The position numbers and the translations under genes are program-made. Under the pieces are notes generated by a model. The model was not told the origin of the DNA. It did no database searches and saw only the letters and a program-made list of their open reading frames with translations. Positions 10,857 through 38,904 of a stretch of DNA of 64,000 bases are shown here, piece by piece. Source of the stretch: Agromyces sp. ISL-38 (GTDB lineage: Bacteria; Actinomycetota; Actinomycetes; Actinomycetales; Microbacteriaceae); contig NZ_JAGGPF010000002.1 in the NCBI RefSeq assembly GCF_018613935.1, positions 1 through 64,000 of the forward strand. The letters are read 5' to 3'. The stretch's first letter is position 1, and the number at the start of each line of letters is the position of its first letter.

Positions 10857-10859
10857 TCT
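10854..10859 (+). promoter_or_regulatory. -10 element of a leaderless start (TAGTCT)
   Basis: TAGTCT, 6 nt, then GTG at 10866. It overlaps the stop of the preceding lipoprotein gene, so the dehydrogenase can be transcribed independently. Confidence 0.5.
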
Positions 10860-10865
10860 GGCGAG

Positions 10866-12029: not shown

Positions 12030-12102
12030 CCCTGCCGTGTTCGGAGGCCGGCCACTAGGCTGGTGGCCGCGGCACGCGTCGCATCAGCACTTGGAGGTCG
12101 TT

Positions 12103-12279: not shown

Positions 12280-12286
12280 TCGCTCG

Positions 12287-13171: not shown

Positions 13172-13203
13172 GCGCGCTCGGCGTCGCACCTTCGCAACGC
13201 TGG

Positions 13204-13209
13204 TAGTTT
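13204..13209 (+). promoter_or_regulatory. -10 element of a leaderless start (TAGTTT)
   Basis: TAGTTT, 6 nt, then GTG at 13216 with no Shine-Dalgarno in the 30 bp upstream. It would drive the antiporter pair. Confidence 0.55.
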
Positions 13210-13215
13210 GGATTC

Positions 13216-23393: not shown

Positions 23394-23560
23394 GATGCCT
23401 CCGTTTCATTCGGGAGTCCACGTCGACGGGGTCGGCGTTTCTGTTTCTCAGTTTCCGGTCGAACTACTTGGCGGTCTCCCACGGGACATCAGGTGCGCAG
23501 TCCACGATTCCACCCCGATAGGTATGACAACCTGCCACCAGATCCTGCGCAAATCATCGG

Positions 23561-23573
23561 ATGCATACTGCAT
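23561..23573. promoter_or_regulatory. Candidate operator, ATGCA-N3-TGCAT
   Basis: Perfect 5-bp inverted repeat with a 3-nt spacer, in the intergenic region between the two divergent fucosidase genes, 168 bp upstream of the minus-strand start. No regulator gene is adjacent. It could occur by chance. Confidence 0.25.
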
Positions 23574-23662
23574 GATATGGCTCATAAGACGCCGGATCCC
23601 TCGCTGCAGTAGGCATGAATCGGCGAATGTGAATCGATATTGACGGCGCGTGAGTTGAATTG

Positions 23663-23681
23663 GTTAGATCTTTACTCTAAC
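23663..23681. promoter_or_regulatory. Candidate operator, GTTAGA-N7-TCTAAC
   Basis: Perfect 6-bp inverted repeat with a 7-nt spacer in an AT-rich patch that stands out from the surrounding high-GC DNA, 55 bp before the GTG at 23736. Its position suits a regulator site for the plus-strand fucosidase. The whole 23394-23735 gap has no other feature that I can support. Confidence 0.35.
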
Positions 23682-23735
23682 TTTGCAGGTGAGTTTGCGG
23701 TCGATTCGAGGCGGCCGCAGTCACGAAGGAGTGCA

Positions 23736-25229
23736 GTGGACGCCCTGGACGATGCGAGCCGCAACCGACTGGACGGAATCGATCGCGTCATCGCTGCCGG
23801 GTCCCGCTCGACTGACTGGAACGATCTGCTGATCACCCCTCCGCCCTGGTACGTCGATGGCAAGTTCGGGATCTTCATCCATTGGGGCGTCTACTCCGTT
23901 CCCGCTTTCGGGAGCGAGTGGTATCCGCGGAACATGTATCGCGTCGGGACACCGGAATACGATCATCACCGCGCCACCTACGGCGACCAGCGAGTGTTCG
24001 GCTACAAGGATTTCGTGCCGATGTTTCGCGCCGAGCGGTTCGACCCGAACGAATGGGCACGCATATTCAGCCGATCTGGCGCACGTTTCGTCGTACCCGT
24101 CGCCGAACACCACGACGGCTTTGCAATGTACAAGACGGAGCTGTCCCGGTGGAACGCCGCAGACCAGGGCCCTCAGCGCGATGTCGTTGGAGAGCTCTCC
24201 GAAGCAGTGCGAGCACAGGGGATGACGTTCGGTGTCTCCTCACATCGCGCCGAGCATTGGTTCTTCTTCAATGGCGGCCGCTCTTTCCCGTCTGACATCG
24301 ACGACCCGGGTACCGTCGACCTCTACGGCCCGGCTGCTCCGGAAGAGACCCAACCGACCACGGCCTTTCTGGAAGATTGGCTGGTGCGGACGTGCGAGCT
24401 GGTCGACCGATATCGACCAGAACTGGTCTGGTTCGACTGGTGGATTGAACAGCCGGCCTTCGAACCCTATCTCCGCCGTTTCGCCGCCTACTACTACACA
24501 CGCGCCGAGGAATGGGGCCGGCACGTCGCGATCAACTACAAGTTCGACGCCTTCAAGCCCGGCACAGCGATCTTCGACGTCGAGCGCGGCCAGCTCGCAG
24601 GAATCCGACCCGAATTCTGGCAGACGGATACGTCAGTCTCGACCACCTCGTGGAGCCACGTCGAACCTCAACATTGGAAGCGTCCTCTCGATCTCATCGG
24701 CGACCTGATGGACATCGTGTCGAAGAACGGGGCGTTGCTTCTCAACATCGGTCCGAAAGCGGATGGGACCATCCCCGCGGAGGAGATCGCCCTGTTGGAG
24801 ACGATCGGCTCCTGGCTCGCGGTGAACGGTGAGGCTGTCTACGGCACGCGACCATGGATCGTTCCGGGCGAGGGTCCGACCGTGGTCGCCGAGGGGGAGT
24901 TCACCGATACTCAGCGCCAAGCCTTCACCGACCGAGACATCCGCTTCACGACAGCGCGAGGTGACCTCTTCGCGACGGTACTCGGGCCCGTCACCGGGAG
25001 CGAGATTCAGATTCGCTCACTCGGAAGCGAACTCAGCCTGCTGCCAACGGGCATCGAGCGCGTGGACCTCGTCGGGCCGTATCGCCCGAAGCTCTCATAC
25101 CGCCGGGATCCGGACGCCCTCCGGATCGATGTTCCGGATGAGGCTCCCCGCGATCTCCCCATCAGTTTCCGCATTCGTCCGGAGCGCCGCGCGACTCGAG
25201 ATCGCGTCAAGTACCTGCTCGCCGACTAG
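23736..25229 (+). CDS. Alpha-L-fucosidase, GH29 (about 497 aa)
   Basis: Second GH29, distinct from its divergent neighbour: DGKFGIFIHWGVYSVPAFGSEW at the N-terminus, VVPVAEHHDGFAMY, and the nucleophile region ELVWFDWWIEQ. The later block GALLLNIGPKADGTIPAEE is conserved. The C-terminal 110 residues form a beta-rich domain (DRDIRFTTARGDLFATVLG). No signal peptide is seen. The frame is open up to a TTG at 23640, but I prefer the GTG at 23736 with GAAGGAG at 23725-23731; the spacing of 4 nt is short, so the start is uncertain. It is probably under separate control from the minus-strand fucosidase. Confidence 0.88.
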   Translation: MDALDDASRNRLDGIDRVIAAGSRSTDWNDLLITPPPWYVDGKFGIFIHWGVYSVPAFGSEWYPRNMYRVGTPEYDHHRATYGDQRVFGYKDFVPMFRAERFDPNEWARIFSRSGARFVVPVAEHHDGFAMYKTELSRWNAADQGPQRDVVGELSEAVRAQGMTFGVSSHRAEHWFFFNGGRSFPSDIDDPGTVDLYGPAAPEETQPTTAFLEDWLVRTCELVDRYRPELVWFDWWIEQPAFEPYLRRFAAYYYTRAEEWGRHVAINYKFDAFKPGTAIFDVERGQLAGIRPEFWQTDTSVSTTSWSHVEPQHWKRPLDLIGDLMDIVSKNGALLLNIGPKADGTIPAEEIALLETIGSWLAVNGEAVYGTRPWIVPGEGPTVVAEGEFTDTQRQAFTDRDIRFTTARGDLFATVLGPVTGSEIQIRSLGSELSLLPTGIERVDLVGPYRPKLSYRRDPDALRIDVPDEAPRDLPISFRIRPERRATRDRVKYLLAD

Positions 25230-25348
25230 GACGGACTCATCAAGCCGACGCTGAGGGCATGTCTCTTCGCTCATGACTCCACCTGGGACCGTGTGAACGC
25301 TGCCGCGTCGGGGACGAGGGTGAGCCGGCTCTTGGCGAGGACAACGAA

Positions 25349-25383
25349 GAAACGCCCGAGATCTTCGCGATCTCGGGCGTTTC
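25349..25383. terminator. Strong hairpin terminator
   Basis: Perfect 15-bp inverted repeat (GAAACGCCCGAGATC, 5-nt loop TTCGC, GATCTCGGGCGTTTC), 120 bp after the second fucosidase. It marks the end of the core transcription unit just before the island. Confidence 0.85.
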
Positions 25384-25394
25384 ACTCGGTGGGG

Positions 25395-25811
25395 CTATTG
25401 CAATACCACTCAAAACATTGTGTAGTAGCCGTCTCACCCCTGGAACTGGTATTCCAATCGCGTCGGTCGCGACGACCAGCCAGCAAGCGGCCCACCCCTG
25501 TTGGCCGAGCACGCCAGCTTCGTCCTGATGAGATCGATCAGCTCGTCGTTCGCTACCGTGAAGTACGCAGCGTGAACACCGTCGCCCGGGAGTTTGGCAT
25601 CAGCCGGCAGACCGTGGGGCAGCATCTCGCCGCCCGTGGTGTCGAGACAATGCGGCGCATTAGTGACGGCCAGATTGAACTCGCTACACGGCGGTATGTG
25701 GGTGGGTTATCGGCCGCAACCATAGGCAAGCAGCTGGGCTTCGATGCCCAGACGATACTCACTGCTTTGCGGCGCGCAGGGGTGCCGATTCGTCCGCGGC
25801 GTGGTGCTTGA
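25395..25811 (+). pseudogene. C-terminal HTH tail of a serine recombinase (remnant)
   Basis: The translation has two consecutive small helix-turn-helix units: VNTVAREFGISRQTVGQHLAARG and SAATIGKQLGFDAQTILTALRRAG, separated by about 20 residues, preceded by an Arg/Pro-rich linker. This tail is known at the C-terminus of actinobacterial large serine recombinases and as separate remnants of them. No catalytic (Ser-containing) resolvase domain is present. The frame is open back to 25230, but the 15-bp terminator inside it means any translation must begin after 25383; a TTG at 25398 is the best of poor choices. It may be a small HTH protein instead of debris. Confidence 0.55.
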
Positions 25812-25847: not shown

Positions 25848-26627
25848 TCAACTCGTTCGAGACGCTACAAATTGGAGCATCTTGCGAACTGGCGGAGGGA
25901 ACATCTGCATCGTGCCGGTCGACGAAACTAACGCGGCAAAGTTTCGCCAAAGCTGAAGTCGCAACTCTTCGGTGGTAATGCCGTGATGCTCGGCAATTGC
26001 GCGTTCCACGTCTTGTACGCGGCCAGGTTGCCGCGGCTTGCTAGAGAATCTGTCTCCGGACGGATGATCCGTCTCGACCAACAAGCGGTCAAGTGGAATC
26101 ACGTGCCAGTCGTTCGTTGCGCGAATCATCGAGTAGTTGATCGAGAAGTGGCAACCCAGCTTCACTGCCCGGAGCGTTTCGGCGGTCGTTCCAAGCCACC
26201 AATGTAGAATCACGCCGCGCCGATCGAGCTGTTGACCGAGCACGCCGAGCAATTGACCTGTCGCGCGAAAGCTGTGGAGCGACGCGAGGCGAGGCGATTC
26301 GCGCAAGCAGTTGAGGATCGACTCGAGCACTTCGATCTGCCCTTCGATCGGCACACGCGACTCACCGTCGAGCCCGACCTCGGCGACGTATGGTGTCGAC
26401 TCCAGAGCGCTACGGAAGTCCTGGATGTCGAACTCCCGCTGGGCTCCGACTAACGACGGATGGCAGCCAGCACCCCACACAGTAACGAGGTCCTTTCGAC
26501 CCCGGACGCTCTCGAACTCGTCGGCGCTCCTTGTCGCTATCAGGACTACGGCGCCAAGGTCCTCGAGGTCCCGACCTGACACCTGAGGCGACACGTGCGC
26601 GTGAGCGTCGAGTGGCGGCAACTTCAT
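25848..26627 (-). CDS. qatD: QatD: TatD-like nuclease of the Qat system (259 aa)
   Basis: TatD-family metal-dependent hydrolase. The HxH motif is DAHAHVS (His9, His11); further ligands are Glu83 in VAEVGLDGE, His118 in LHSF, His142 in LHWWLG and Asp187 in LLVETDHP. All metal residues of the family are present, so it should be an active DNase-like enzyme. It is the last gene of the operon, overlapping qatC by 4 bp (ATGA). In the Qat anti-phage system, QatD is the TatD-like component and is needed with QatA, B and C. Its role in the mechanism is not settled to my knowledge. Confidence 0.88.
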   Translation of the reverse strand: MKLPPLDAHAHVSPQVSGRDLEDLGAVVLIATRSADEFESVRGRKDLVTVWGAGCHPSLVGAQREFDIQDFRSALESTPYVAEVGLDGESRVPIEGQIEVLESILNCLRESPRLASLHSFRATGQLLGVLGQQLDRRGVILHWWLGTTAETLRAVKLGCHFSINYSMIRATNDWHVIPLDRLLVETDHPSGDRFSSKPRQPGRVQDVERAIAEHHGITTEELRLQLWRNFAALVSSTGTMQMFPPPVRKMLQFVASRTS

Positions 26628-27901
26628 GAAAGGTAGGCCCCCAGTTCCGCTCGTCCGCGCTCACAGAGGTGCTTTGCTTCTCTCGCCGTCAAACCGGGAG
26701 GCAGCGGCATCGCCATGATGGTGGCATTGTCAATGCCACGGTCCACGAAGTCGCGTGCAGCTTCCACGACAGAATGGCTCGCCGTGTATGCATCGAACTG
26801 ATGGTCTTCACTTAGGTAGCGGGTTGCATCCTTCACCCCCGACGTCGTAAAGGACGCGCGCCGCACGATGCACCCGAAGCACACCCCGCAGTGTGTACCG
26901 CTCGGCACACCTTGGTAGTTCTGGTCGGTGTGCGAGCACGAGTTCGTCGAGGTAAGGAACATGGATGCCTCGTCGGCCCCGAGCAGCGAAGCGACCTGCG
27001 CGAACATCTCCCCCTTGGTGTCGAGTTGGAACGGGTTCTCTAGTGCAGCATGTGCGCCGACTTTCATGAGGAGTTCCTGAAAGCGCCAGAGAAACCACGG
27101 GTGAGTGGTCTTCGTCGAAAGTGCTCCGAGCCGTTCGGGACCAAGTGGCGGGTTCAGTGATGCGAACCCGTTCTCCGGGATCCACAGCGTGGCCCCCGAC
27201 TGCGCAGCGACGGCGAGTCCGAGCGCAAGAAAAAGAAAAGACCGGGAGCGGCTTGACGGCTCGTCCGAGTACTCCGTCCCATCCAGGCGCTTCTTGGCAC
27301 GAGCAAGAAACACCCGGTGATGGGCTTCTTGCTTGCCCGAGAAGAGCACCTCGAGAGCGTCGTGAACTTCTTGCTGCGATCCGCTCGTTGCGCCGGAACT
27401 CGAGTGGGACACGAGAATATGCGACGATCCGATTGCGAGGGAACTGGCCGAGATGACGGCGCCCGTCCCCGAGTCCGCGCCGCCGCTGGCCAAGACCACG
27501 CGAGCCGGCGCGTGAGCCACGAGTGGCTGCTGGTCCTCTTCGCCCTCGTAGTAGGTGAACTGGAAACTCCAGTCGTCGCCGGTGAGGAAGTTGGTCACGA
27601 CGATAAGTTCTGCCGAGTGACGCGCCCATAACTCCGGGTCGCTGACCGGCACGATCACGTCCAATTCACGGCGGTTCCAGTTGGACCCGCCACCTTCCCG
27701 CTTGACGCTGTGGTCGGCCGCATAGACTGCGAGTGCGATACGTACGACGTCCGCACTGAGCGGTGGAACAGTGCCCAGTTGGGACAAGGTCGGGGTCAGT
27801 TTCGTCTTGAAGCTTTGATCCGCCGCCCCATCCCATACGAAGACCTCGTCGACGTCGGTCGGGATTCGTGTTCGGTCGGTGACGAGGGCAAGCCGGGTCA
27901 C
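26624..27901 (-). CDS. qatC: QatC: QueC-like enzyme of the Qat system (425 aa)
   Basis: Member of the QueC-like ATP-pyrophosphatase (PP-loop) family, whose housekeeping members make preQ0. The PP-loop is VVLASGGADSGTG (SGGADS at residues 139-144), and the zinc site is Cys322 with the cluster CGVCFGC (Cys338, 341, 344). It is nearly twice the length of QueC because of an N-terminal extension of about 130 residues, as in known QatC. Start overlaps the qatB stop by 4 bp. In defence loci, QueC-like enzymes have recently been linked to attachment of a deazaguanine to partner proteins; here the likely partner is QatB. Confidence 0.88.
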   Translation of the reverse strand: MTRLALVTDRTRIPTDVDEVFVWDGAADQSFKTKLTPTLSQLGTVPPLSADVVRIALAVYAADHSVKREGGGSNWNRRELDVIVPVSDPELWARHSAELIVVTNFLTGDDWSFQFTYYEGEEDQQPLVAHAPARVVLASGGADSGTGAVISASSLAIGSSHILVSHSSSGATSGSQQEVHDALEVLFSGKQEAHHRVFLARAKKRLDGTEYSDEPSSRSRSFLFLALGLAVAAQSGATLWIPENGFASLNPPLGPERLGALSTKTTHPWFLWRFQELLMKVGAHAALENPFQLDTKGEMFAQVASLLGADEASMFLTSTNSCSHTDQNYQGVPSGTHCGVCFGCIVRRASFTTSGVKDATRYLSEDHQFDAYTASHSVVEAARDFVDRGIDNATIMAMPLPPGLTAREAKHLCERGRAELGAYLS

Positions 27902-28719
27902 GTCGGCTCCCCGTGGATATCTACCAACTGTTGAACGCTCGTCTCGATCGCGCGCGTGATGTCCGCTGCGCTCGCTCCCACACCGTCGAGATTGAGCTTG
28001 CCCGCGAGAACCTTCGCACCCCGGCGCACTTCTGCCTCGGCCTCCCGCCGTTTGACAGGGTCGGACTCCTTACGGATAGTGTCGCTCACCTCGGTAAGCG
28101 TGGCCCGTGCAATCATGAGCTCGATCGAGTACCGAACGATCTGGTCAGGCTCAGGGCGCGCGCCATCCGCATCCATAATCCAGGAGGCCAGCTGGGCCAC
28201 GATCAGGCGCGCTTCGCCGTCCTCGATGCTGCCATCGGGCTGACCCTCGAACGCGACCTCGGCAATCTTGCGGCCGACTTCAAGCGGGTCATCGAGTGCT
28301 CGAAGCTGGTCGTAACTGAGCCCGGCCTCCTCGAGCATCGGGCGGTCACCCGCGACGTATGCGCGCGCAAGGGCACTGGCTCGACCAGCCGGGCCAGCCA
28401 CGCGCCGGACGGTACGTTGGACGCCGCCGGACGACCTACCGCTGCCCGACGATCCGCGCCCACCCCCAGCGCTCCGACCACCGCCACCACTACCCGTGCC
28501 ACCGGAGCCACCACCCGACGGGCCTCGCGTCCAGAGACGGGCCGCAGCAGCGAGAGCGTCGGGATTCAAGTGCCCCGGTTCGCTCGCTTGGTCGCTCTCC
28601 GGACCGGCGGGCGTACTCTGCTGAACCTCATCGGAGCCTCCCAGCCAGTCGCTGATTGCGTCGCGCAGACTCTTGGCGTCCTTGCCGCCGCTCCCTTTGA
28701 AGGCCCCGCTGGTACCCAT
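27898..28719 (-). CDS. qatB: QatB: Gly-rich partner protein of the Qat system (273 aa)
   Basis: The N-terminus MGTSGAFKGSGGKDAK places Gly right after the initiator Met, followed by a Gly/Ser stretch; a long Gly/Ser/Arg-rich linker spans about residues 72-105, and a helical C-terminal domain of about 160 residues follows (LARAYVAGDRPMLEEAGLS ...). There is no known catalytic motif. Length, composition and position between the KAP ATPase and the QueC-like gene identify it as QatB. The qatA stop and qatB start share one base (28719). An exposed N-terminal Gly would suit N-terminal modification by QatC; this is an inference. Confidence 0.85.
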   Translation of the reverse strand: MGTSGAFKGSGGKDAKSLRDAISDWLGGSDEVQQSTPAGPESDQASEPGHLNPDALAAAARLWTRGPSGGGSGGTGSGGGGRSAGGGRGSSGSGRSSGGVQRTVRRVAGPAGRASALARAYVAGDRPMLEEAGLSYDQLRALDDPLEVGRKIAEVAFEGQPDGSIEDGEARLIVAQLASWIMDADGARPEPDQIVRYSIELMIARATLTEVSDTIRKESDPVKRREAEAEVRRGAKVLAGKLNLDGVGASAADITRAIETSVQQLVDIHGEPT

Positions 28720-30533
28720 CAGGCGCCCTGCTTTCGCACGGAGACGATTGCTCGCTTTGTTATGTCATCGGCACCGGCCGACCACCCGTCGAGCACATCC
28801 GCATAGTCTGCTGCCAAGCCGTTCAGGACAAGCACGCTGGAGGACTTCACTTCGGCACCCGGGAGCAATGAGAGGGCGCGCTTGGCATCCTCGATCTCGC
28901 TGGGGTGCAGAGTTGCGATCGTGACGATGGCGTTCACCGTCGGGAGTTGGATCGAAGGATCATCGCGCATGCGCCGACCGAGGTGAGCCAGCAGTTCCAC
29001 GACATCGCCCGGCGGCAAGGCTTTGATCTCATTGTCTTTCACTGCGGTGCGGTCGATTTGCGAGCTTGACGTCAAGGCGGCAGCTAGGTCGCGCAACGTC
29101 TCAGAGAGCGACTCGTCCACCAGGAGGCGTCCTTGGAAAGCCGCGGCCAATGTTAGATATCCCGAGACGAGGGTGGGCTCGAGCTCGGGCGGCAGCTTTG
29201 CCCAACGCACCATGGTGCTTGAGTACTCGCCTTCGATGGCGGCCGGGTCTCCGTCGACCTTCTTCTCCTTCTCGGTGTCTGCATCCGACTGCCCACCCCT
29301 CGCAAGGAGCTGCAGCTGGTTGAGCTTGCCGCGCAAGCTCCCCGAGGCAAGCCAATCCATGAGCGCCTCGAAATCCTTCCTGAACAGGCGCTCCATGACC
29401 ATGAGCTTGGCGATAGCGTCGGGCTCGAGCTTGATGCCGCGTCTCGCCGCCACTGACTGGCGAATGTATAGGTCATTCATAAAGCGCTTGATACGGCGCG
29501 GATTGCCCTGGAACTTCTCGTAGAGCACCGGCGTGAGCCTCGAAGCGGTTGCCATCGAGGCTGCGAGATCAACGCCCTCTGGCATCTGAAGATCGTCAAG
29601 ACTCCCCGCGTCGACTCGAAGCGCGTCGCAGTCAGCGACGAGGTGAGCGAACACCTTCGATTCGACAATCGACCGGACGAGCAGGAGAAAGAGGTATGCA
29701 CGTGTGTCGAAATAGCTAAGTGCTGGCAACGGCACTGTTGTCTGAACGATCTTGTGAAGGTAGAGGCTGGCGATGCTCTCTGTACCGTCGCGGGGGTCTG
29801 GCGTCTGGAGTTTCTGCTGAATCGCTTCGGCCACGCGAGCCTCGTCTGCGGCAATGACGAAGGACATGCCTTCCGCCGACAAGAAGAGACGGATGGCTTC
29901 CAACGTCTCAAGAACCGTCTGTGGTAGACACCGGTCGAGGTCATCGACGAGGACGACCACCTGTCGCACGTGCGATAGCGCCTCATCCTCGAGGAGCGAC
30001 TCGAACTCCTCGCGAAAGTTGTCCATACCCTTCTCTGAGTCGAGTGTCTCCGGCTCGTCACTGACCAGCCCCATAACTGCATCGAGTGACGGAAGCTGTG
30101 CAGTAAGTGCCGTGGTCGCTGCCATCTTGATTGCCTTGGACCAGTTGACCCGCCTTGCGAGATTCTTGAGTGCCTCACCGGCCGTCTGCTTGACTAGGTC
30201 CGACCCCTTGAACTCATCCGCCAGAGCCGTTAGCACGGCGGAGATCAGGCTCTCTTTGGGGCCACGTGACGGGTCATAGCGCCAGGGGTCAGCTCGTACA
30301 ACGACGATCGTCCGCTCGTCAGTTGAGCGGCCCGTGATCCGTTTGTCGATCAGATTGAGGACCGTGGTCTTCCCGCTCCCCCAGGTCCCCGAGATACCGA
30401 GCGCTACCGGGTTGAGAGTGTCATCGAAGAGTGCATCGACAACCGTGTCGGCAATCGCGCTAAACGAAAGCAGGTCCGTTGTCGCTGGTTCATCCGACAG
30501 CAACTGCAGAGCAGCGACGGGCAACTCAGTCAT
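28719..30533 (-). CDS. qatA: QatA: KAP-family P-loop ATPase of the Qat system (604 aa)
   Basis: KAP NTPase. Walker A GISGTWGSGKTT is at residues 46-57, Walker B VVVLVDDLDRCL at 192-203; the DDLDRC string is the KAP signature. The usual transmembrane insertion between the two motifs is weak here, only a mildly hydrophobic stretch around 135-157. The C-terminal half is helical and family-specific, with an IKRFMNDLYIRQ block after the ATPase core. The ATG at 30533 overlaps the metalloprotease stop by 8 bp, so Qat is translationally linked to the restriction operon upstream. Known Qat systems need the ATPase for phage protection. Confidence 0.9.
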   Translation of the reverse strand: MTELPVAALQLLSDEPATTDLLSFSAIADTVVDALFDDTLNPVALGISGTWGSGKTTVLNLIDKRITGRSTDERTIVVVRADPWRYDPSRGPKESLISAVLTALADEFKGSDLVKQTAGEALKNLARRVNWSKAIKMAATTALTAQLPSLDAVMGLVSDEPETLDSEKGMDNFREEFESLLEDEALSHVRQVVVLVDDLDRCLPQTVLETLEAIRLFLSAEGMSFVIAADEARVAEAIQQKLQTPDPRDGTESIASLYLHKIVQTTVPLPALSYFDTRAYLFLLLVRSIVESKVFAHLVADCDALRVDAGSLDDLQMPEGVDLAASMATASRLTPVLYEKFQGNPRRIKRFMNDLYIRQSVAARRGIKLEPDAIAKLMVMERLFRKDFEALMDWLASGSLRGKLNQLQLLARGGQSDADTEKEKKVDGDPAAIEGEYSSTMVRWAKLPPELEPTLVSGYLTLAAAFQGRLLVDESLSETLRDLAAALTSSSQIDRTAVKDNEIKALPPGDVVELLAHLGRRMRDDPSIQLPTVNAIVTIATLHPSEIEDAKRALSLLPGAEVKSSSVLVLNGLAADYADVLDGWSAGADDITKRAIVSVRKQGA

Positions 30534-31245
30534 GAATCCACTCCTCCGCCGCCAGTGGCGCTTCGTTTAATTCGTCCCGCCTAGAGCGCCAGTCGGGCAA
30601 GTGCTTGTCCATAAGGGCAACGAATCGCTCATTGTGTGTGCGCTCGTGGAAATGCATTAGCTCATGAGCGACGATGTACTCCAGGCAGCGCGGGTTCTTC
30701 CTGGCGAGCTCGGGGTTGAACCAGACGGCTCCCGAGTTCGGTTGACATGTGCCCCACTTGGTCTTCATACGGCGGACGACGACCTTCGTCGGCTCGTGGC
30801 CGATGATCGCTTGCCACTTCTCGAGCAATGGCGGAAGTGCCGCCTTCAGCTCGCGGCGATACCAGCGGTCGAGGATCGCGTAGCGATGCTCGGCGTCGGT
30901 GCCCTCAGGCGACACCACCCAGAGTGAGTCACCGTCGACTTTGACATCTGGCCTTCCCGTGCGAGAAACGTCGAGTAGAAGCGCGCGACCCCATACGTAG
31001 TGGGTCTCCCCCGAGCGCATCGTCCGCTCGGTCTGTCGCGCGGCGTTCTGGAGCTGGGTGCGCTGCTGTTTGATCCAAGGGAGCCGCTGAATGATGGCGC
31101 GGCGGATGCTGTCCTCGTCGAGGCGCTGCGGAGCTGCGACCCGCACTCTACCGATTGGCGGATAGACGGAGACATGGAGGTTCTTGATGTCCTTATAGAT
31201 GACATCGATCCCGAGCCCCGCAACCGTCAAGTAGGCGGTGGTCAT
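30526..31245 (-). CDS. YgjP-type zinc metallopeptidase (M48/DUF45, 239 aa)
   Basis: Zinc metalloprotease of the YgjP-like family. The active site is HELMH (residues 194-198) with His204 nearby, and the conserved KTKWGTC (161-167) that marks this family is present. The length of 239 aa is normal. Such genes are often found directly next to type I restriction genes; their job there is not known and could be turnover of restriction subunits. The start shares one base with the hsdR stop (31245) and the stop overlaps qatA by 8 bp, so this gene bridges the two defence modules. Confidence 0.88.
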   Translation of the reverse strand: MTTAYLTVAGLGIDVIYKDIKNLHVSVYPPIGRVRVAAPQRLDEDSIRRAIIQRLPWIKQQRTQLQNAARQTERTMRSGETHYVWGRALLLDVSRTGRPDVKVDGDSLWVVSPEGTDAEHRYAILDRWYRRELKAALPPLLEKWQAIIGHEPTKVVVRRMKTKWGTCQPNSGAVWFNPELARKNPRCLEYIVAHELMHFHERTHNERFVALMDKHLPDWRSRRDELNEAPLAAEEWIHD

Positions 31246-34200
31246 CAGTGACCTCCGCCGTGGTATTCGAGCTGGTTCTTGATGAGCTTGAAAAGTTCGT
31301 CGAAGGCGGCCTCGTCGAGGCCCGGGAGTTCGTCACGGAGAATGTTGGCGAGCTCTCGCTCCTTGCGGAAACTGCCGACCCATCCAGCGCGACGTTCACG
31401 GAGCACCGTCAAATGCACCATTTTGGCGGTATCGATGTCATCGTCGAAGTAGTCCACGATGGCCTGAACTCCGCGCGTCTGCACCCAGTCCGGATAGATG
31501 CGATCCGACTCTCCACGGCCGACCTTCTCGGCTAGCTCAAGCAATTGCCGAAGGTATTCAGCGTAGTCGATGGCATCGTGCTTGCGCTGTTCGATGAGCG
31601 CATCGAGAAGTGTCGACATCGAGTCGTAGTACTTCGGGTTCATCGCGTGCTCGTCGATGATCGTCTTACGGACGTTGTTGACGATCGTCTCGGCGACGGC
31701 TTCCTGATTCTTCTTGATGCCTTCAGGAAGGTCATCGAGGGCACCAGCGCCGCGCTCGACGATGAGCTCGATGAGCCCCTTGTCCTCGAAGGTCGCGACG
31801 ACCTCCGACGGGTTGGCGTGAATGTAGGTGTCGAGCAGCGCGCGCATACCTGCCTCGAACTGTTTGAAGTCGACATTCTCGCCAGCACCGATCTTCACCT
31901 CGTCACGAACGTCGACATAGTGGGCGACCTCTTGCTTGATAGCAGCCGCATCGACTGCCGAGTAGCCCGCCTCGGCCATGTCGTTAGCAATGGACGCGTA
32001 TGCGCGTACGAGAGCTGAGACTCCCTTGTAGAGGTCAACGCGTCGCATCTCGTTAGCCTTGATTTGCGCTGCGTTGCCCGGCTCGACAGCGACGAAGTAG
32101 TGCTGATACTGCTGCGTCTCCCGAGGTGGGGCGACCGGTTCCAACAAGGCTCGAATACGCTCGAGGGCTTCATCGAGAGACTCGCGGGCCTGTTCGATCT
32201 GGTCCCTGAGCAGTCCGTCGATGTCCTCCTTCTGGTAGCTATCGAAGGCACCCGAAGTGTAGTCGGTGATGGCACGATCGAGCGACTTGAAGAGATCGCG
32301 ATAGTCGACGATGTAGCCGTATTCCTTGTCGTCACCGTCGAGCCGGTTGACTCGGCAGATTGCCTGAAAGAGGCCGTGGTCGCGCATCGACTTGTCGATG
32401 TAGAGGTAGGTGGCACTAGGCGCGTCGAAACCGGTGAGAAGTTTATCGACGACGATGAGCAGGCGCATCTGGCCGGGCTCTTCGATGAAGCGCCGCTTCA
32501 CCTCCTTCTCGAACTCCTCGAGGCGTAGCACAGCCTTGTCCTCGGGCTCATTGAAGAAGTGAGCGAGCATCTTGCGGTAGGTCTCGTACTGCTTGATTTT
32601 CTCGGTCTTGCCCGCGCCGGCATCTTCCTTGGCGATGTCGCTCGCGTTGGGGACGTAGCTGGTGACGATCGCCACCTTGCCCTCGAAGCCAGCGTTGACG
32701 AACATCTCGTAGAACTTACATGCCTGATAGATGCTTTCGCCGACGAGCATGGCATTGCCGCGGCCATCCACGAGGCGTGGCTTGATATCCATGTCACTCA
32801 AGATGTCCATGACGATCTGCTTGGCACGTGGCTCCGAAGACACAACCTTCTGCATTGTCCCCCAGCGCTTCTTGAGCTCCGCTTTAGTGAGGTCGGTCAT
32901 GCCCTTGGTCTTGGTCTCAAACCACTGGTCGACCTTGCCCGCGCTCATCAGATCCTGATCGATGTTGCGCGCCTCGTAGCGCAGGTCGAGCACGACGCCG
33001 TCGGCAACGGCCTCGTCGAACTTGTATGTATGGATGAATGTCCCGAACTGCTTAATGCTGGTCATCTTGTCGGCATGTAAGAGCGGTGTACCGGTGAAGC
33101 CGATGAACATCGCTCCTGGCAGAAGCTCCTTCATCGCGTCGTGCATCTTGCCTGACTGTGTACGGTGCGCCTCATCAACGAAGACAAAGAGATTGCCCTT
33201 CGCGGAGAATCCTGCGGGGATCCTTGCCTTGAGCTGACGTAGGAACTCTTCGCCCGCCTCATCACGCTCGACTTCATCGTCGCCGCCACGGAACTTGTGC
33301 ACGAGTGACGAGATCAAGCTGGGCTTGTTCGAATTGAGCTTGCTGATTAGATCGGCGCCACTCGTAGTGCGGTAGATGGCTTCGTTGACACCAAGGAACA
33401 CCTTCTCGATCTGCTCATCGAGGTCGGTACGGTCCGTGATGATCAGCACGCGTGCGTGCTGCTGGTTCGCAAGGATCCATTTGGCGAGCCAAACCATGGT
33501 CAGGCTCTTGCCCGAGCCCTGGGTGTGCCAGATGATGCCGCCCTCGCGTCGGGCGATGCGCTCTTTGGCGGCCTGGATGCCGAAGAACTGGTTGTGACGA
33601 GCGGTCTTCTTCACGCCTGCGTCAAACAGAATGAAGTCGTGGATGAGCTCGAGGAGGCGGTCCTTCGAGCACATCTGCAGCAGACCAGCGTCGAGGCGCT
33701 CCACTCCAGCGCTTGGCTCCTTCCACTCCAGCCAGTACTTCTCCGGCGTCTCGATCACGCCGTAGCGCAGCCCCTCGACGTCGTTGCCAGCGAAGAGCAG
33801 CTGAACCGTCGTAAAGAAGGACTGGATGAAGTGCTGCTTCTGATTACCGATGTTCTGCCGAATGCCCTCAGAGACGCTCACCTTTGAGCGCTTGAGCTCG
33901 ATGACCCCAAGGGCAAGCCCGTTGACGTAGAGCACGACATCAGGGCGCTTATTGTGTTCGCCCTTGATCGACACTTCTTCAGCGATCATGAAGTGGTTGG
34001 CATGAGGATTGGACCAGTCGATCAGCCATACGGTCTTGTGAGGCAAGCCAGCGCCCGGGCTGACTTTGATGCCGTAGCGCAGCAGCTCGTATACCTTACG
34101 GTTGGCCTCGTACAGCGAGGCACTACCACCGACCGCCGCAGCCCTTTGAAGCTCGTAAACCGCCTTGTTGATGAGATCGTCGTCATAACTACGCGCGGTG

Positions 34201-34346
34201 AGGTTCTGTCGCAAGTAGAGCTCCTCAATATGAGAATTCTCCCTGTCGTTCTCACAGCTTCCGACGTATTCGTAGCCGAGCCGCTCCTGGAAGAGCTTGA
34301 CGACGCGATCCTGCGTCTTGCGTTCGATCTGACCGACCTGACTCAT
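31245..34346 (-). CDS. hsdR: Type I restriction enzyme R subunit (1033 aa)
   Basis: DNA translocase and endonuclease subunit of a type I RM enzyme. The N-terminal nuclease has the PD-(D/E)xK site RPDVVLY ... GVIELK (Asp136, Glu150, Lys152). Walker A is WHTQGSGKS (275-282 region), the motif II box is VDEAHR, and ITGFDAP-like VDKLLTGFDAPSATYLY is the late helicase motif. The C-terminal region is helical and binds the methylase core. Length is normal. Overlaps hsdS by 4 bp and shares one base with the protease gene. All motifs look intact, so the enzyme is probably active. Confidence 0.95.
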   Translation of the reverse strand: MSQVGQIERKTQDRVVKLFQERLGYEYVGSCENDRENSHIEELYLRQNLTARSYDDDLINKAVYELQRAAAVGGSASLYEANRKVYELLRYGIKVSPGAGLPHKTVWLIDWSNPHANHFMIAEEVSIKGEHNKRPDVVLYVNGLALGVIELKRSKVSVSEGIRQNIGNQKQHFIQSFFTTVQLLFAGNDVEGLRYGVIETPEKYWLEWKEPSAGVERLDAGLLQMCSKDRLLELIHDFILFDAGVKKTARHNQFFGIQAAKERIARREGGIIWHTQGSGKSLTMVWLAKWILANQQHARVLIITDRTDLDEQIEKVFLGVNEAIYRTTSGADLISKLNSNKPSLISSLVHKFRGGDDEVERDEAGEEFLRQLKARIPAGFSAKGNLFVFVDEAHRTQSGKMHDAMKELLPGAMFIGFTGTPLLHADKMTSIKQFGTFIHTYKFDEAVADGVVLDLRYEARNIDQDLMSAGKVDQWFETKTKGMTDLTKAELKKRWGTMQKVVSSEPRAKQIVMDILSDMDIKPRLVDGRGNAMLVGESIYQACKFYEMFVNAGFEGKVAIVTSYVPNASDIAKEDAGAGKTEKIKQYETYRKMLAHFFNEPEDKAVLRLEEFEKEVKRRFIEEPGQMRLLIVVDKLLTGFDAPSATYLYIDKSMRDHGLFQAICRVNRLDGDDKEYGYIVDYRDLFKSLDRAITDYTSGAFDSYQKEDIDGLLRDQIEQARESLDEALERIRALLEPVAPPRETQQYQHYFVAVEPGNAAQIKANEMRRVDLYKGVSALVRAYASIANDMAEAGYSAVDAAAIKQEVAHYVDVRDEVKIGAGENVDFKQFEAGMRALLDTYIHANPSEVVATFEDKGLIELIVERGAGALDDLPEGIKKNQEAVAETIVNNVRKTIIDEHAMNPKYYDSMSTLLDALIEQRKHDAIDYAEYLRQLLELAEKVGRGESDRIYPDWVQTRGVQAIVDYFDDDIDTAKMVHLTVLRERRAGWVGSFRKERELANILRDELPGLDEAAFDELFKLIKNQLEYHGGGH

Positions 34347-35551
34347 GCTGCGGCCTCCGTTGTCGCGAGGCGCGTGCGCCCCGTGAGCAGCTCCTGCATC
34401 ATTCCCCGCTTGATGAGCCGAGTGGACTCGAGCCGACGCTCGAGAGAATCGATTTCCGCGTCCGCGTCACGAATAATCTGCGCCACGGCACGCTGTTCGC
34501 CAATCTCTGGCAAATCGAACTCGATACCGGCGAGGGCTCGTGAGCTAATGTGCACGACTGCGTCGCCTTGCCCGGCGCTCGCTTTCTGCGCGACCATCGC
34601 AGGCGTGTTTAGAAGTGTCGCCAAATACACTGGATCGTAGCCCCCGCCGCGCAGGATAATTGTGTCTCCACCTGCCACCGCGTCCTGCTCGCCAACATAG
34701 GCAACGCACGTGCCAATCTCCTCTTTCGTTTCGCCCGACGCAGCGAACAGGAGGTCACCCGATCGAATCGGCTGAGACGTCGATGCGACGTCGGAACCAA
34801 CAAACGACACCGTCTTGGCTGTGTAATCGCGGTACGTAGTGTAAAGCTCGCCGTATCGAATGCATGGAATACCCGATGGGCGCACTTCGTCCCTCTTGAT
34901 GCCGCGTCCCTTCGAAAATACGCCGAGCGACCCGAGGACCACGCGCTGCCATGGCTCGGCATAGCCCGCGAGACGGGTTCGCCCGGTCAGTAGTTCCTGC
35001 ACCATGCCTTGCTTTACGTCTCGTTTCTTGGCAATGAGCTGTTCGAGCACATCGACCAACTGCTCCGCCGCCTGCAACTGTCGCGCAATCATCCGTTGGT
35101 GATCCACCGGAAGGATGGGCACGGGTAGGTTGCCTAGCTGCTGTGCGTTAATGCCAGGCTGCCCACTTCGCGTTGACTCGACTTCGACCCAGTCCCAGTA
35201 GGCCTTTGTCTGAAGGAAGAAGCCAAGGTACTCCGGAAGGAGCTTTGCAGGGTCGGGCGAGATCGCCATAAGAAATCCAGCGAAGACAAGTGGGCCATCG
35301 TCGGGCCGATATCGATACGACTTCCCCACACTCGCCCCAGTCCTCGCCACTACGATGTCGCCCGAGCGCAGCATGTACATCGAGCTTTGCGACGACGAAA
35401 CCGAGACTCGTGGGCTGGGTGAGAACCGGCCGTCTTCATCTATGTCAGTGATCCGTATATATGTCGGGAGGTCCCACTTGTGGGGCACCGATGCGGCACC
35501 GATGCCATATCGCGGCGGACTCTTCAGTAGTGTCCGAAGCGGAACCGTCAT
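34343..35551 (-). CDS. hsdS: Type I RM specificity subunit (402 aa)
   Basis: Two target-recognition domains, each followed by a coiled-coil spacer ending in the same string: GMVQELLTGRTRLA (about residue 188) and GMMQELLTGRTRLA (C-terminus). This internal duplication is the family's hallmark, and each half reads one part of a bipartite DNA target. It has normal length and overlaps hsdM and hsdR by 4 bp each. The target sequence cannot be predicted here. No second or inverted hsdS copy is nearby, so there is no sign of phase-variable shuffling. Confidence 0.93.
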   Translation of the reverse strand: MTVPLRTLLKSPPRYGIGAASVPHKWDLPTYIRITDIDEDGRFSPSPRVSVSSSQSSMYMLRSGDIVVARTGASVGKSYRYRPDDGPLVFAGFLMAISPDPAKLLPEYLGFFLQTKAYWDWVEVESTRSGQPGINAQQLGNLPVPILPVDHQRMIARQLQAAEQLVDVLEQLIAKKRDVKQGMVQELLTGRTRLAGYAEPWQRVVLGSLGVFSKGRGIKRDEVRPSGIPCIRYGELYTTYRDYTAKTVSFVGSDVASTSQPIRSGDLLFAASGETKEEIGTCVAYVGEQDAVAGGDTIILRGGGYDPVYLATLLNTPAMVAQKASAGQGDAVVHISSRALAGIEFDLPEIGEQRAVAQIIRDADAEIDSLERRLESTRLIKRGMMQELLTGRTRLATTEAAA

Positions 35552-38007
35552 GCGCTAACCCCGATTGCAGCTAGGTTCCGCGCCACCTTTGCACTTAGTT
35601 CGTTCACGTGACTGTCAATTTCGCCGAGGGTAGTTCCGTACCGACTCACCAGCACACGCAATCGTTCGATGAGGAGCCGCAGAAGTGACGCGACCTCTCC
35701 AGAAACGCCATTGTCGATAGTGGCACCCCACTTGTAATTGATGACGAGCTCCCGCACGTCGGATTCATTCAATCGCCCATATTGAGCAAGCGTCGCCTGC
35801 TCCAGAGCTAGATTCGCGTCCTTCGCTGCCCTCTTTGCGACGGTCTCCGCCTTGAAGAGTGTGACGACGTGATCAAGTGCCGCGATCTCGTCGGCCTCGG
35901 CGCCTTCGGCCTTCGCCGCCTTAAGCCGGTCTGTTGCCAGCTTGCTTGTTACCTTGCCCTCGTCATCGGCAGCATCGAACAGCAATCCCTCTTCAACGGC
36001 GTGCTCTTCGACGTACTCGACAATGGCCAGAGTGGCCGCTTCAACGTCAGCCTGGAATAGGTCGAGTTGGGCCCTTTCAGTCTTGAAATAGCGCTCGACG
36101 ATCAGTTCCGGGGGCACGAGGTCGGCGACCCAACGCGCTGCTCTAGCACCCGTGCCGAAGATCAGGTGCGCGTCCTCATAAATAGGCTTCTTGTTCTTGT
36201 CCTCGCCGAGGATCCGAGCGGGGCGGGGTTTCGATGCATCGAGCCAGCCCTCGCTCATGATCAGAGCGACGTCGTCGTGCATCACCGCATGCCAGTAGCG
36301 CATGAGCTGCTCATAGACGCCGTACTCGTCGATCAACGGGCGGGTACGGAAGCGGATCAGCAGTTCCTCACCGAGGGACTCGATGAGTTCGTTCGGTAGC
36401 GTTGTTGCTGTGATGCCCTCGAGCTCAGCTCGATGACCCGTCCACCACTGCGCCAACTGGCCTTTCACCTCGTCGTGGAAGGCGCGATATTCGGCTGAGC
36501 CGGTGATCGTGGCCTGAATCGCGCCTTTGTCAATGGCGAGCTCGGAGTAGCCGGGTCGCAGAGGCTTGAAGAGTGTCATCGGCTGAGATGGAAACGCATC
36601 CCAGTAGGCCTGCAGAGCGTCGAGGTCACGATCGGGAATGCCGCCCTGGAGGTGGGCGTGCAGGTCTTGGATGTCCTCGGGTTCCGACGAATCGACATAG
36701 CGTGGGATGTTCAGGTTGTAGTCGTTCTTCGCGTCGGCGATCTCGTTGAGCGGCACCTTGCGCGAATAACGCGGCACTTCGAGCTCCCTAGTGAAGACGT
36801 CCACGATCTTGTGCATGTCGCGCGGTCGGAGGCGGTTCTTCGGGCCGTCCTTTTCGAAACCTTTTGAGGCATCGATCATGAAAATGTCAGTGCGGTCGGC
36901 GGCGTTCTCCTTGTCGAGAACGACGATGCATGCCGGGATGCCGGTGCCATAGAAGAGGTTGGCTGGCAACCCGATGATGGCCTTGATGTAACCGCGCTTG
37001 ACGATCTCGCGGCGAATAGTTGCCTCGGTGTTGCCACGGAACAGCACGCCGTGCGGCAGGATGACCGCGCCCTTGCCGGTCGACTTCAGCGACTTGAGGA
37101 TGTGTAGAAGGAAGGCGTAGTCGCCATTCTTTTCCGGTGGGCGACCGAACTCGAAGCGGCCATAACCCTCCTCAAGTCCATTCGTCCAGGTCTTCACGGA
37201 GAAAGGCGGATTGGCGACGACGAAGTCGAAGGTCTGAATCGTCTTGGGATCCTTGAGGAACCTCGGCCTCGCGATGGTGTTGCCCGGCTCGATCTCCGCG
37301 GTCGCGTTGCCGTGCAGGATCATGTTCATGACGGCAAGCGCCCACGTGGCGTTGTCCATCTCTTGGCCGTACACCGTTAGGCCATTGGGTGCGGCGGCGG
37401 CAACCTTCAGCAGGAGCGAGCCGGAGCCGCAGGTTGGGTCATAGACGGTCGCCGACTTAGGTGTGCTCGACGTGATGCCGATGAGCTGCGCCATGACGCG
37501 CGAGACTTCGGCGGGCGTGTAGAACTGACCCTTCGACTTGCCAGACTCGGTCGCGAAGTGACGCATGAGGTACTCATACGCATCGCCCAATAGGTCGTCG
37601 CCCTCGGCGCGCGAACCGGAGAAATCGAGGTCTTGGAAGATGCCTAGCAGGTTGCTGAGGCGAGCGACCATGTCTTTACCGTCGCCGAGCTTGTTCGGGT
37701 CGTTGAAGTTGGCGTTGTTAATGACTCCGACGAGTTCGTTCTCGTCAGCGAGCGCACGAATTGCGACGTTTATCCGCTCGCCGATGTCGGGCTTGTGCTT
37801 GAGCAAGAGCAGGTCGTCGAATGAGCTGCCCTTCGGAACGACGATCAAGCTGTTCTTGCTCACCTTCGCCTTATCCGAGACGTACTTCACGAAGAGCAAG
37901 GTCAGGACGTAGTCCTTGTACTGCGAGGCATCCATTGAGCCGCGTAGTTCGTCAGCCCCCTTCCAGAGGGAGCTATACAGATCCGACTTCTTGAGCGCCA
38001 CTACCAC
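35548..38007 (-). CDS. hsdM: Type I RM DNA methyltransferase subunit (819 aa)
   Basis: N6-adenine methyltransferase. The SAM-binding motif I is TVYDPTCGSGSLLLK (DPTCGSG at 190-196) and the catalytic motif is ANPPFS (NPPF at 266-269). The N-terminal helical HsdM domain precedes. At 819 aa it is longer than classic HsdM (about 500): the extra C-terminal 300 residues include a Lys/Glu/Ala-rich helical segment and an alpha-helical end, as in one large HsdM group. Start is GTG at 38007 with GAAGGTGG upstream; a GTG two codons later is also possible. First gene of the eight-gene operon. Confidence 0.93.
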   Translation of the reverse strand: MVVALKKSDLYSSLWKGADELRGSMDASQYKDYVLTLLFVKYVSDKAKVSKNSLIVVPKGSSFDDLLLLKHKPDIGERINVAIRALADENELVGVINNANFNDPNKLGDGKDMVARLSNLLGIFQDLDFSGSRAEGDDLLGDAYEYLMRHFATESGKSKGQFYTPAEVSRVMAQLIGITSSTPKSATVYDPTCGSGSLLLKVAAAAPNGLTVYGQEMDNATWALAVMNMILHGNATAEIEPGNTIARPRFLKDPKTIQTFDFVVANPPFSVKTWTNGLEEGYGRFEFGRPPEKNGDYAFLLHILKSLKSTGKGAVILPHGVLFRGNTEATIRREIVKRGYIKAIIGLPANLFYGTGIPACIVVLDKENAADRTDIFMIDASKGFEKDGPKNRLRPRDMHKIVDVFTRELEVPRYSRKVPLNEIADAKNDYNLNIPRYVDSSEPEDIQDLHAHLQGGIPDRDLDALQAYWDAFPSQPMTLFKPLRPGYSELAIDKGAIQATITGSAEYRAFHDEVKGQLAQWWTGHRAELEGITATTLPNELIESLGEELLIRFRTRPLIDEYGVYEQLMRYWHAVMHDDVALIMSEGWLDASKPRPARILGEDKNKKPIYEDAHLIFGTGARAARWVADLVPPELIVERYFKTERAQLDLFQADVEAATLAIVEYVEEHAVEEGLLFDAADDEGKVTSKLATDRLKAAKAEGAEADEIAALDHVVTLFKAETVAKRAAKDANLALEQATLAQYGRLNESDVRELVINYKWGATIDNGVSGEVASLLRLLIERLRVLVSRYGTTLGEIDSHVNELSAKVARNLAAIGVSA

Positions 38008-38211
38008 GTCACCACCTTCGGCGACTTCGTTGCCGCTGCATCTTGAGTTGTGGGTCTGATCATGTCGTTGCGTCTACTCCTCCACGCAGAGGTGGTTGTA
38101 ATGGTTACTCACAGGCTTGCCCACAGCGTACCGGCGTAGGCCGACACGGGCTGGGCGAAACTGTGGGTGATTCGCGTTCGGGAGCGAGGCTCAACCGATG
38201 TGCAATATCTG
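38008..38211 (-). promoter_or_regulatory. Long untranslated leader of the defence operon
   Basis: About 204 bp lie between the likely transcription start (near 38211) and the hsdM start, long for an operon whose other junctions overlap. It contains the inverted repeat CCCACAG (38120-38126) / CTGTGGG (38161-38167), with a 34-nt spacer, and a TTGCCCACA (38117-38125) that resembles the actinobacterial DnaA box. Whether these are binding sites or an RNA stem is unknown. Confidence 0.35.
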
Positions 38212-38217
38212 CTCGTA

Positions 38218-38246
38218 ATTATACCTTGATCAGGTCTTTTTAAGAA
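38218..38246 (-). promoter_or_regulatory. Promoter of the hsd-qat operon
   Basis: On the minus strand: -35 TTCTTA (38241-38246), 17-bp spacer, and a perfect consensus -10 TATAAT (38218-38223). Such a consensus -10 is rare in high-GC DNA. 38247-38409 beyond it shows no gene. Confidence 0.6.
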
Positions 38247-38409: not shown

Positions 38410-38733
38410 TCAGGCGTTGGACGGCTTGGCGCGCGCGCCCTTGGGAGCGGGTGCGCTGCCTCCGAAGATGGCCTCGATCGCGCTCTGCTTGGTCTTCGCT
38501 TCGCGCTCGATCTCGGCCCGCACCGTCTCGGCCCGTGCGAGGACCTTCGGGTCGGACTTGCTGGTCTCGACCCAGGCCTCGAGGGCGAGACGGATCTCTT
38601 CGGTGACGCTGCGGTCGTTGAGCTGGGCGATGACGTCCAATTGCGCTCGCAGGTCGTCCGTCATGCGCACGGCGAGCGTCCGCACCGGACTTGGTGCCGC
38701 CGGAAGCCCGGCAGCGGGGTTGTTCTCACTCAT
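38410..38733 (-). CDS. Ribbon-helix-helix (CopG/ParD-like) regulator (107 aa)
   Basis: Start at the ATG 38733, with GAGGAGG 7 nt upstream; an upstream in-frame Met is less likely. Residues about 22-55 (RTLAVRMTDDLRAQLDVIAQ, then NDRSVTEEIRLALEAWVE) have the strand-helix-helix pattern of RHH DNA-binding proteins, followed by a charged helix (DPKVLARAETVRAEIEREAK) and a disordered basic tail. No toxin gene is adjacent, so an antitoxin role is not supported. A mobile-element regulator or partition-type protein is more likely. Confidence 0.65.
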   Translation of the reverse strand: MSENNPAAGLPAAPSPVRTLAVRMTDDLRAQLDVIAQLNDRSVTEEIRLALEAWVETSKSDPKVLARAETVRAEIEREAKTKQSAIEAIFGGSAPAPKGARAKPSNA

Positions 38734-38904
38734 GGTGAGCCTCCTCATCGGAAGCGGCCGACGAATCCCTGGTGGATTCCTCTTGTGATAAGCCGCAGGC
38801 CGGTGAGGAACGAGGACGATTATGAACCGGTCCGCGCGTGCGTCAATCTTCCGATCGTGAGCGTTGTGAAAACCACTACAAGCTGTCCCAACGCACCGTC
38901 TGGG

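Follow-up and report, generated by a model that had tools for sequence, protein, structure and literature searches.

The 64,000-nucleotide stretch of Agromyces sp. ISL-38 analysed here (contig NZ_JAGGPF010000002.1, positions 1 to 64,000; the window) carries on its minus strand a type I restriction-modification gene set whose last member, ygjP, runs directly into the genes of a Qat system. The locus is probably a type I operon, of the order leader open reading frame (ORF)-hsdM-hsdS-hsdR-ygjP, whose 3' end carries an exchangeable and co-expressed defence cassette, qatABCD in the window. Since relatives carry different, unrelated systems at the same place, the ygjP-qatA join looks like a plug-in position and not one fused machine. 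The eight minus-strand genes in 25848..38007 and the overlaps at all seven junctions are exactly as given in the initial annotation of this DNA.

35548-38007, minus strand: hsdM, type I methyltransferase subunit; hidden Markov model (HMM) match, NPPF and DPTCGSG motifs
34343-35551, minus strand: hsdS, type I specificity subunit; HMM match, 4-bp overlap with hsdM
31245-34346, minus strand: hsdR, type I restriction subunit; HMM match, 4-bp overlap with hsdS
30526-31245, minus strand: ygjP, gluzincin-type metallopeptidase of the hsdMSR module; PF01863, 1-bp overlap with hsdR
28719-30533, minus strand: qatA, KAP-type P-loop ATPase; HMM match, 8-bp overlap with ygjP
27898-28719, minus strand: qatB, N-terminal MGTS; position and alignment, 1-bp overlap with qatA
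26624-27901, minus strand: qatC, QueC-like; HMM match, 4-bp overlap with qatB
25848-26627, minus strand: qatD, TatD-like nuclease; HMM match, 4-bp overlap with qatC

Gene Content and Overlaps

The HMM searches recognised HsdM, HsdS, HsdR, the YgjP-like family PF01863, QatA, QatC and QatD in the window. The genes hsdM, hsdS and hsdR contain the N6-methylase, specificity and HSDR_N/helicase domains of a type I system, and a VDEAH motif is present in the type I proteins besides NPPF and DPTCGSG; sequence-specific methylation and restriction by HsdMSR are predicted from these domains and motifs. QatC, with a PP-loop motif SGGADS and the motif CGVCFGC, resembles the solved QatC chains 9vlk and 9zee. 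QatB gave no HMM match in the window scans and only low-complexity matches among PDB sequences, and was identified by its position, its MGTS start and its alignment with QatB-position proteins from other Qat loci. With A, C and D recognised by PADLOC, the Qat set is complete and in the order A-B-C-D, as first annotated, and anti-phage activity is predicted from this gene set. QatA, QatC and QatD score below the NCBIfam equivalog cut-offs (303.5 bits against 600, 279.1 against 280 and 132.9 against 230, respectively), indicating that the window's Qat belongs to a diverged clade. It shares with the QatABCD described by Gao et al. (PMC13279940) the four-gene order, the MGTS start of QatB and the relation of QatC to solved chains, whereas it is diverged in sequence and fused behind a type I operon. 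According to these authors, defence requires the MGTS motif of QatB as well as the QatB-QatC pair.

The overlap at every junction had been taken as a sign of coupling along the whole operon. The overlaps are real, but most are intrinsic to each module. The three Qat overlaps (1 bp at A/B, 4 bp each at B/C and C/D) also occur in loci L003 and L069, yet a type I system is absent from the DNA examined there, and the hsd and hsdR/ygjP overlaps are likewise present in relatives. Only the ygjP/qatA junction is special to the window locus. GC content at third codon positions fails to separate the modules (0.67–0.77 for hsd/ygjP, 0.69–0.73 for qat).

ygjP as Part of the Restriction Module

Relatives of ygjP were sought in 398 genomes drawn from the family (E 1e-30), 396 from the phylum (1e-30) and 342 from the order (1e-60), and besides the window's own genome were found in 6 family, 19 phylum and 5 order genomes. 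The gene directly before ygjP is hsdR in all six other family loci, all five order loci and 13 of the 19 phylum loci, three of these 13 showing hsdR fragments only (L015, L057, L062); in the six phylum loci without hsdR, ygjP is only 36–44% identical. Within the genus, four other genomes were found by hsdR, and the two with close hsdR relatives both have ygjP behind it. On five Rhodococcus and Mycolicibacterium plasmids ygjP again follows hsdR. As hsdR precedes ygjP across relatives and plasmids, ygjP is part of the restriction module. The proposal that the protease bridges the two modules is accordingly not supported, what follows ygjP being interchangeable. A search of phage records for ygjP returned one record (34% identical), and nine ygjP loci lie on viral contigs.

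YgjP matches PF01863 at 198.7 bits (cut-off 26), and the HExxH motif with a third His is present in 21/21 close relatives, the window included. The predicted structure of the C-terminal domain has a minigluzincin fold (predicted local distance difference test score 86, predicted template modelling score 0.63), with selecase and abylysin as best matches in a fold search that gave three PDB matches with E values between 3e-4 and 8e-4. Proteolytic activity is predicted from this fold and the HExxH motif. The HExxH fold domain is common to the minigluzincins (selecase, abylysin, jannalysin), SprT/YgjP-like peptidases and the window's YgjP, which differs from the other two groups in an additional N-terminal domain and in its link to hsdR. 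Escherichia coli YgjP is annotated as a UTP pyrophosphatase. A second type I system on another contig of the window genome (L098, contig C11) has a YgjP gene (~30% identical) after hsdR, with no same-strand cargo directly behind it.

Cargo Behind ygjP

The position behind ygjP was tabulated in 16 genome loci, window included, all with ygjP of at least 55% identity. Qat occupies it in the window and in G938, and CBASS (cyclic oligonucleotide-based anti-phage signalling) in G220, G793 and G1140, with differing first genes. Other loci carry PDC-S54 (G470), PDC-S53 (G742), Hachiman (G931), a YobI-ATPase/Tmn-like protein with AbiJ and UzuA after it (G767), GajA followed by just an 80-amino-acid ORF (G581), IetA with a DUF6414 protein (G741), a methyltransferase-like ORF with alternative starts (G750), a methyltransferase and UzuA after an 85-amino-acid ORF (G790), and an AAA/SMC protein that matches Ppl in part (G864). 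The cargo of G1117 matches no family, and that of G178 is a 155-amino-acid ORF without PADLOC match. The two genes in the slot of G1117 (L118, oriented 11058-13632; 652 and 211 amino acids) have no Pfam or PADLOC match and are a candidate new defence system. The CBASS cyclase behind ygjP in G220 (L054, oriented 10428-11306) begins with MGTS, the start also seen in QatB, which resembles the MGGS of type IV CBASS; the cyclase is a possible substrate of QueC-type N-terminal modification.

The first downstream gene on the same strand matches a PADLOC model in 14 of the 16 loci, all except L118 and L055; three of these matches are weak or generic (generic methyltransferases in L053 and L095, partial Ppl in L122), and in L095 an 85-amino-acid ORF without match was passed over. 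At the same 14 loci the gene before hsdM, taken as control, matches PADLOC in 0/14 cases against 14/14 for the first downstream gene. The control covers 14 of 16 loci, L055 ending in hsdS at the contig end and L118 having no hsdM match; in L051, L052 and L053 smaller ORFs closer to hsdM were passed over, and the first ten controls were picked after the downstream matches were known and later completed to 14. The slot between hsdS and hsdR varies too, holding GIY-YIG, TIGR02391, TrlF, DUF262 or PDC-S14 genes. In the window no defence gene lies between hsd genes, Qat following the module's last gene, whereas relatives use both slots.

The first cargo gene overlaps ygjP by 4–14 nt in 8 of the 16 loci, and one further locus has a 6-bp gap. 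The tight ygjP/qatA junction stressed in the initial annotation is thus no isolated accident, Qat being found behind ygjP also in an independently assembled locus (L119, of genome G938).

Homology Ends and Independent Assembly

The junction itself contains the following element.

30541..30547, minus strand: ribosome-binding-like site GGAGGAG, inside the end of ygjP around the conserved EEW codons, 7 nt before the qatA ATG

The C-terminus of YgjP is conserved up to a Trp (..LNxAPLxxExW), with E234 and W236 invariant in all 11 aligned rows, and is followed by a tail variable in length and sequence; the stop codon of the window's ygjP falls within the first qatA codons, in another frame. This is the picture that would be expected from cassettes fused right behind the conserved Trp. 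DNA homology ends at the end of ygjP in 5 of 6 restriction-locus comparisons. Measured back from the end of the ygjP stop, it ends at 31 bp in both L119 and L121 (80.7% identity), at 3 and 6 bp for L101/L123, at 9 bp for L120/L053 and at 12 and 6 bp for the window and L094. Between the Rhodococcus p52 plasmids L123 and L125 the hsdR-ygjP stretch is 95.3% identical as far as 6 bp short of the ygjP stop end; beyond that point the plasmids differ for 1.4 and 5.5 kb, as does most of their hsdS-hsdR interval.

The restriction modules of G938 (L119) and G1140 (L121) are sisters with 100% support, one carrying Qat and the other CBASS. Their homology starts ~200 bp before hsdM, with no leftward homology found beyond these last 200 bp, and spans hsdM, hsdR and ygjP, while hsdS and the hsdS-hsdR gap are mostly diverged. 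It resumes right after Qat or CBASS, inside a double helix-turn-helix (double-HTH) gene, and returns past ~6 kb of extra G1140 DNA in a SAICAR synthetase-domain gene. As this right flank is common to both, a single chromosomal site is suggested.

L119, from another family and found in the order draw made with ygjP only, has the arrangement hsdM-hsdS-[PDC-S14]-hsdR-ygjP-qatABCD, the sole other case of the full order. The genome search that had been proposed for hsdMSR-ygjP-qatABCD thus yields one further example, G938, in which the ygjP/qatA gap is 115 bp (73 bp from an earlier TTG), indicating that coupling is no fixed property of this gene pair. In the Qat tree the window groups with L003 and G938 with G713 (each 100%), neither partner having a type I system; in the hsdM+hsdR+ygjP tree G938 groups with the CBASS-bearing G1140 (100%) and the window with G470/G767/G1117 (94%). 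As the two full-order loci fall in different clades in both trees, the combination arose at least twice.

Qat Loci Elsewhere

At E 1e-10, QatC was found in 12 other genomes of the family and 6 others of the phylum; one is common to both draws, giving 17 genomes. The 19 Qat loci examined, each with 2.5–10 kb ahead of the first Qat gene, comprise 16 of these 17 genomes, L003 and two of five plasmid records with QatA; G184, with QatC on a 3.9-kb contig, was left out, and G431 (L069) and L004 are one genome, counted once. In L082 and L083 only QatC was seen. The order hsdMSR-ygjP stands in front of Qat in 0/19 loci, and 0/12 of the other family Qat loci carry this restriction module. L081 alone has a type I system nearby, a distant one with YgjP that is convergent with Qat. 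The closest Qat relatives of the window, L003 (79% identity in QatA) and L069/L004 (64%), are without the restriction module. Weak matches to hsdR in L003 (48 bits) and to hsdM in L069 and L099 (33–41 bits) were put down to similarity with unrelated helicases or methylases. Both modules are present in G767 on different contigs, and in G184 on short contigs, where adjacency cannot be judged. Modules lying apart among unrelated neighbours, which had been put forward as the sign of a chance junction, are thus largely what is found for Qat.

The L003 contig (1-21755, DIZX01000016.1) is labelled Patescibacteria, and its Qat proteins are 69–79% identical to the window's; the Qat stretch has 59–66% GC inside flanks of 44–56% GC, which reflects either recent transfer between phyla or mis-binning.

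Promoter and Leader

Three features lie ahead of hsdM.

38218..38223, minus strand: -10 box TATAAT of the likely operon promoter; sequence, and a TATA-like box in aligned relatives
38001..38063, minus strand: leader ORF of 20 codons, MIRPTTQDAAATKSPKVVTW, behind a GGAGGAG site
38169..38209, minus strand: putative 5' leader hairpin (RNA structure); topology shared with related leaders

The TATAAT that had been called a good promoter is present at 38223-38218, and 7 of 12 aligned upstream regions have a TATA-like box at the matching position. As a promoter it is weaker than claimed: a consensus promoter scan, which found 4 sites against 2.4 expected, did not report it, and its -35 region, judged by eye, is poor. 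The leader ORF, missed in the initial annotation, has a stop that overlaps the hsdM start by 7 nt, so that coupling may begin ahead of hsdM. In eight loci, including the window, a leader ORF of 15–21 codons behind an AGGAG-type site runs 4–7 nt into the start of hsdM; L119 and L121 have the corresponding stretch joined to hsdM in frame.

Leaders that are recognisably alike, each with a short hairpin, occur in ten loci. A strict hairpin topology is found in 8 of 10 related leaders, against 136 of 10000 shuffles, these sequences being related to each other. RNAalifold on MAFFT alignments of the leaders gave almost no consensus (-0.68 kcal/mol; model R1 without any base pair), an Rfam search of the leader gave no match, and the fold z-scores, between -2.45 and +0.11 in the ten hairpins and between -1.25 and +0.79 in five longer leaders, are modest. 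With almost no consensus from RNAalifold and modest z-scores, it is the shared topology that points to the putative hairpin, which is a lead rather than a result. Upstream of hsdM lies a short gene (38410-38748, minus strand), a possible regulator of ribbon-helix-helix appearance by eye, which has no Pfam or PADLOC match and is 85% identical to one before hsdM in L094, of the same genus.

Convergent Double-HTH Gene and Neighbouring DNA

25293..25811, plus strand: double-HTH gene with resolvase-type HTH, convergent and closing the cassette; real start probably near 25392

No catalytic domain was found in this gene, which sits 36 bp after qatD. It closes the cassette in 7 of 16 loci (window, L119, L121, L120, L054, L094, L048), its relatives in the other six lying -23 to 190 bp from the last same-strand gene. 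It lies farther off in L049, L050 and L051, and tblastn found none in L052, L053, L055, L095, L118 or L122. Three Qat loci that lack a restriction module have such a gene too (L003, L072 and, after two further genes, L070). A profile gave 13 matches at E ≤1e-5 in eight genomes, 9 of them inside the loci studied, and a search of the window genome with the window's protein gave one match; as the profile was built partly from these same genes, this enrichment is biased upward. In L121 (11333-15756) two double-HTH copies flank a group of small genes, of which two or more carry pilin-type N-methylation motifs. In the window a perfect 15-bp inverted repeat (25349-25383), perhaps the terminator of the fucosidase gene, lies immediately ahead of where the double-HTH gene probably starts.

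Two alpha-L-fucosidase genes (22053-25229) adjoin the defence operon in a region of 58–64% GC, lower than most of the window (~70%). An integrase was sought beside tRNA-Ala, where 41172-42395 gave no Pfam match.

Discussion

Defence genes inside type I operons are known. According to PMC12255303, DarTG lies between hsdS and hsdR in an island of enteropathogenic Escherichia coli (EPEC; RptR-RMS-DarTG-M48), an M48 gene follows the island, and the hsdS-hsdR gap is called a potential recombination hotspot. E. coli prrC in the EcoprrI type I operon (PMC3874165) and the Campylobacter rlo/mlo genes of type I operons (PMC5183652) likewise sit between hsdS and hsdR. The window's operon is like these in carrying an unrelated defence module, and like the EPEC island in having a metallopeptidase gene, M48 family there and ygjP here, the likeness being one of presence alone. 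In those systems the cargo lies between hsd genes, whereas in the window it comes after ygjP at the operon end, often overlapping ygjP in relatives; the convergent double-HTH gene that closes the cassette in seven loci also sets window-type operons apart, and a different short gene (38410-38748) lies upstream in the window. No description of the 3' slot behind ygjP was found in the open PMC papers searched. A guilt-by-embedding preprint by Payne et al., cited in PMC12255303, may touch on this slot.

Beyond the gene content, overlaps, varied cargo, homology ends and two independent assemblies, which are direct observations, one transcription unit under shared control is likely. A single promoter before hsdM would drive all genes, and ribosomes finishing ygjP would start on the first cargo gene, helped at qatA in the window by the GGAGGAG in the EEW codons; a module fused behind this point would thereby be expressed alongside the restriction genes. 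Homologous recombination may swap the cassettes by way of their conserved flanks, namely hsdR-ygjP to one side and the convergent double-HTH gene or a later flank to the other. The modules most likely act separately, HsdMSR cutting unmodified DNA and Qat probably acting via QatB modified by QatC, so that restriction and Qat would give layered protection. YgjP would serve the restriction module, perhaps by removing or controlling HsdR complexes on DNA.

Several points weigh against this reading of an exchangeable, co-expressed cassette. Co-transcription is a deduction. Gaps of 55–326 bp separate ygjP from its cargo in 7 of 16 loci, including the 115 bp of L119, the other Qat case, and start codons were set mechanically, the nearest start being taken. 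Both downstream PADLOC misses (L055, L118) lie where the hsdM side is not comparable, L118 having a ZorD/DpdE-like defence-type helicase gene further upstream, and the PADLOC scan covers only the clade with ygjP of at least 55% identity. Among 37 plasmid records with YgjP, 13 were examined out of 20 among the matches listed, and the slot count concerns five Actinomycetota loci: 0/5 have an ORF of at least 90 amino acids overlapping ygjP, same-strand PADLOC genes stand at 169 bp (ThsB-like, L125) and ~362 bp (SIR2, L103), and the other three have no annotated PADLOC gene behind ygjP. The homology of the window with L119 already ends inside hsdR.

Some of these observations would also suit a defence-island hotspot, in which recombination would bring defence modules to the place after ygjP and the close packing of compact genomes would create the overlaps, with no selection for joint expression. 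This is possible, if clearly less probable, and is favoured by the gaps in seven loci, the Rhodococcus plasmids that differ behind ygjP without an overlapping gene, and the second variable slot between hsdS and hsdR; the 4–14-nt overlaps in eight loci and the one-sided distribution of PADLOC genes (14/14 on the 3' side, 0/14 before hsdM) argue against it. An unlikely, more elaborate scheme makes hsdMSR-ygjP an expression and exchange platform, in which leader hairpin and leader ORF would control all genes, the ygjP end would lend a ribosome-binding site to any cassette, the double-HTH protein would mark or drive exchange, and YgjP would be the switch releasing a second layer (Qat, CBASS, Gabija and others) once restriction is defeated.

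The suggestion that both modules work or are regulated as one unit holds in that shared regulation is likely; one machine is unsupported, Qat being mostly found without the restriction module. A functional unit in which YgjP connects the two modules, for instance through cleavage of HsdR, of QatB or of a repressor that would set off Qat once restriction has failed, is quite improbable. It would draw on the ygjP/qatA overlap in the window, the assembly of the combination on two occasions, the gluzincin metallopeptidase fold of YgjP, and published precedents: PrrC, which a type I enzyme holds as a cargo protein (PMC3874165), and CapP, which cleaves the CBASS repressor CapH (PMC12255303) and has only an insignificant fold match to YgjP (7t5t, E 0.6). 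Against it, ygjP occurs with hsdMSR and many different cargoes or none, Qat normally occurs without ygjP and without hsdMSR, and some defence is reported for QatBC by itself (PMC13279940). A chance junction of two modules unique to the window genome, consistent with the closest Qat relatives and the 0/12 other family Qat loci lacking the restriction module, is very improbable, being largely refuted by L119 and the wider slot pattern.

With L119/L121 and the Rhodococcus plasmids, the borders of exchange are placed with a precision of a few tens of bases. Should the slot prove general, genes standing behind ygjP would predict undescribed defence systems, such as the two matchless genes of L118, and type I operons would be a test bed for combining and exchanging immune systems.

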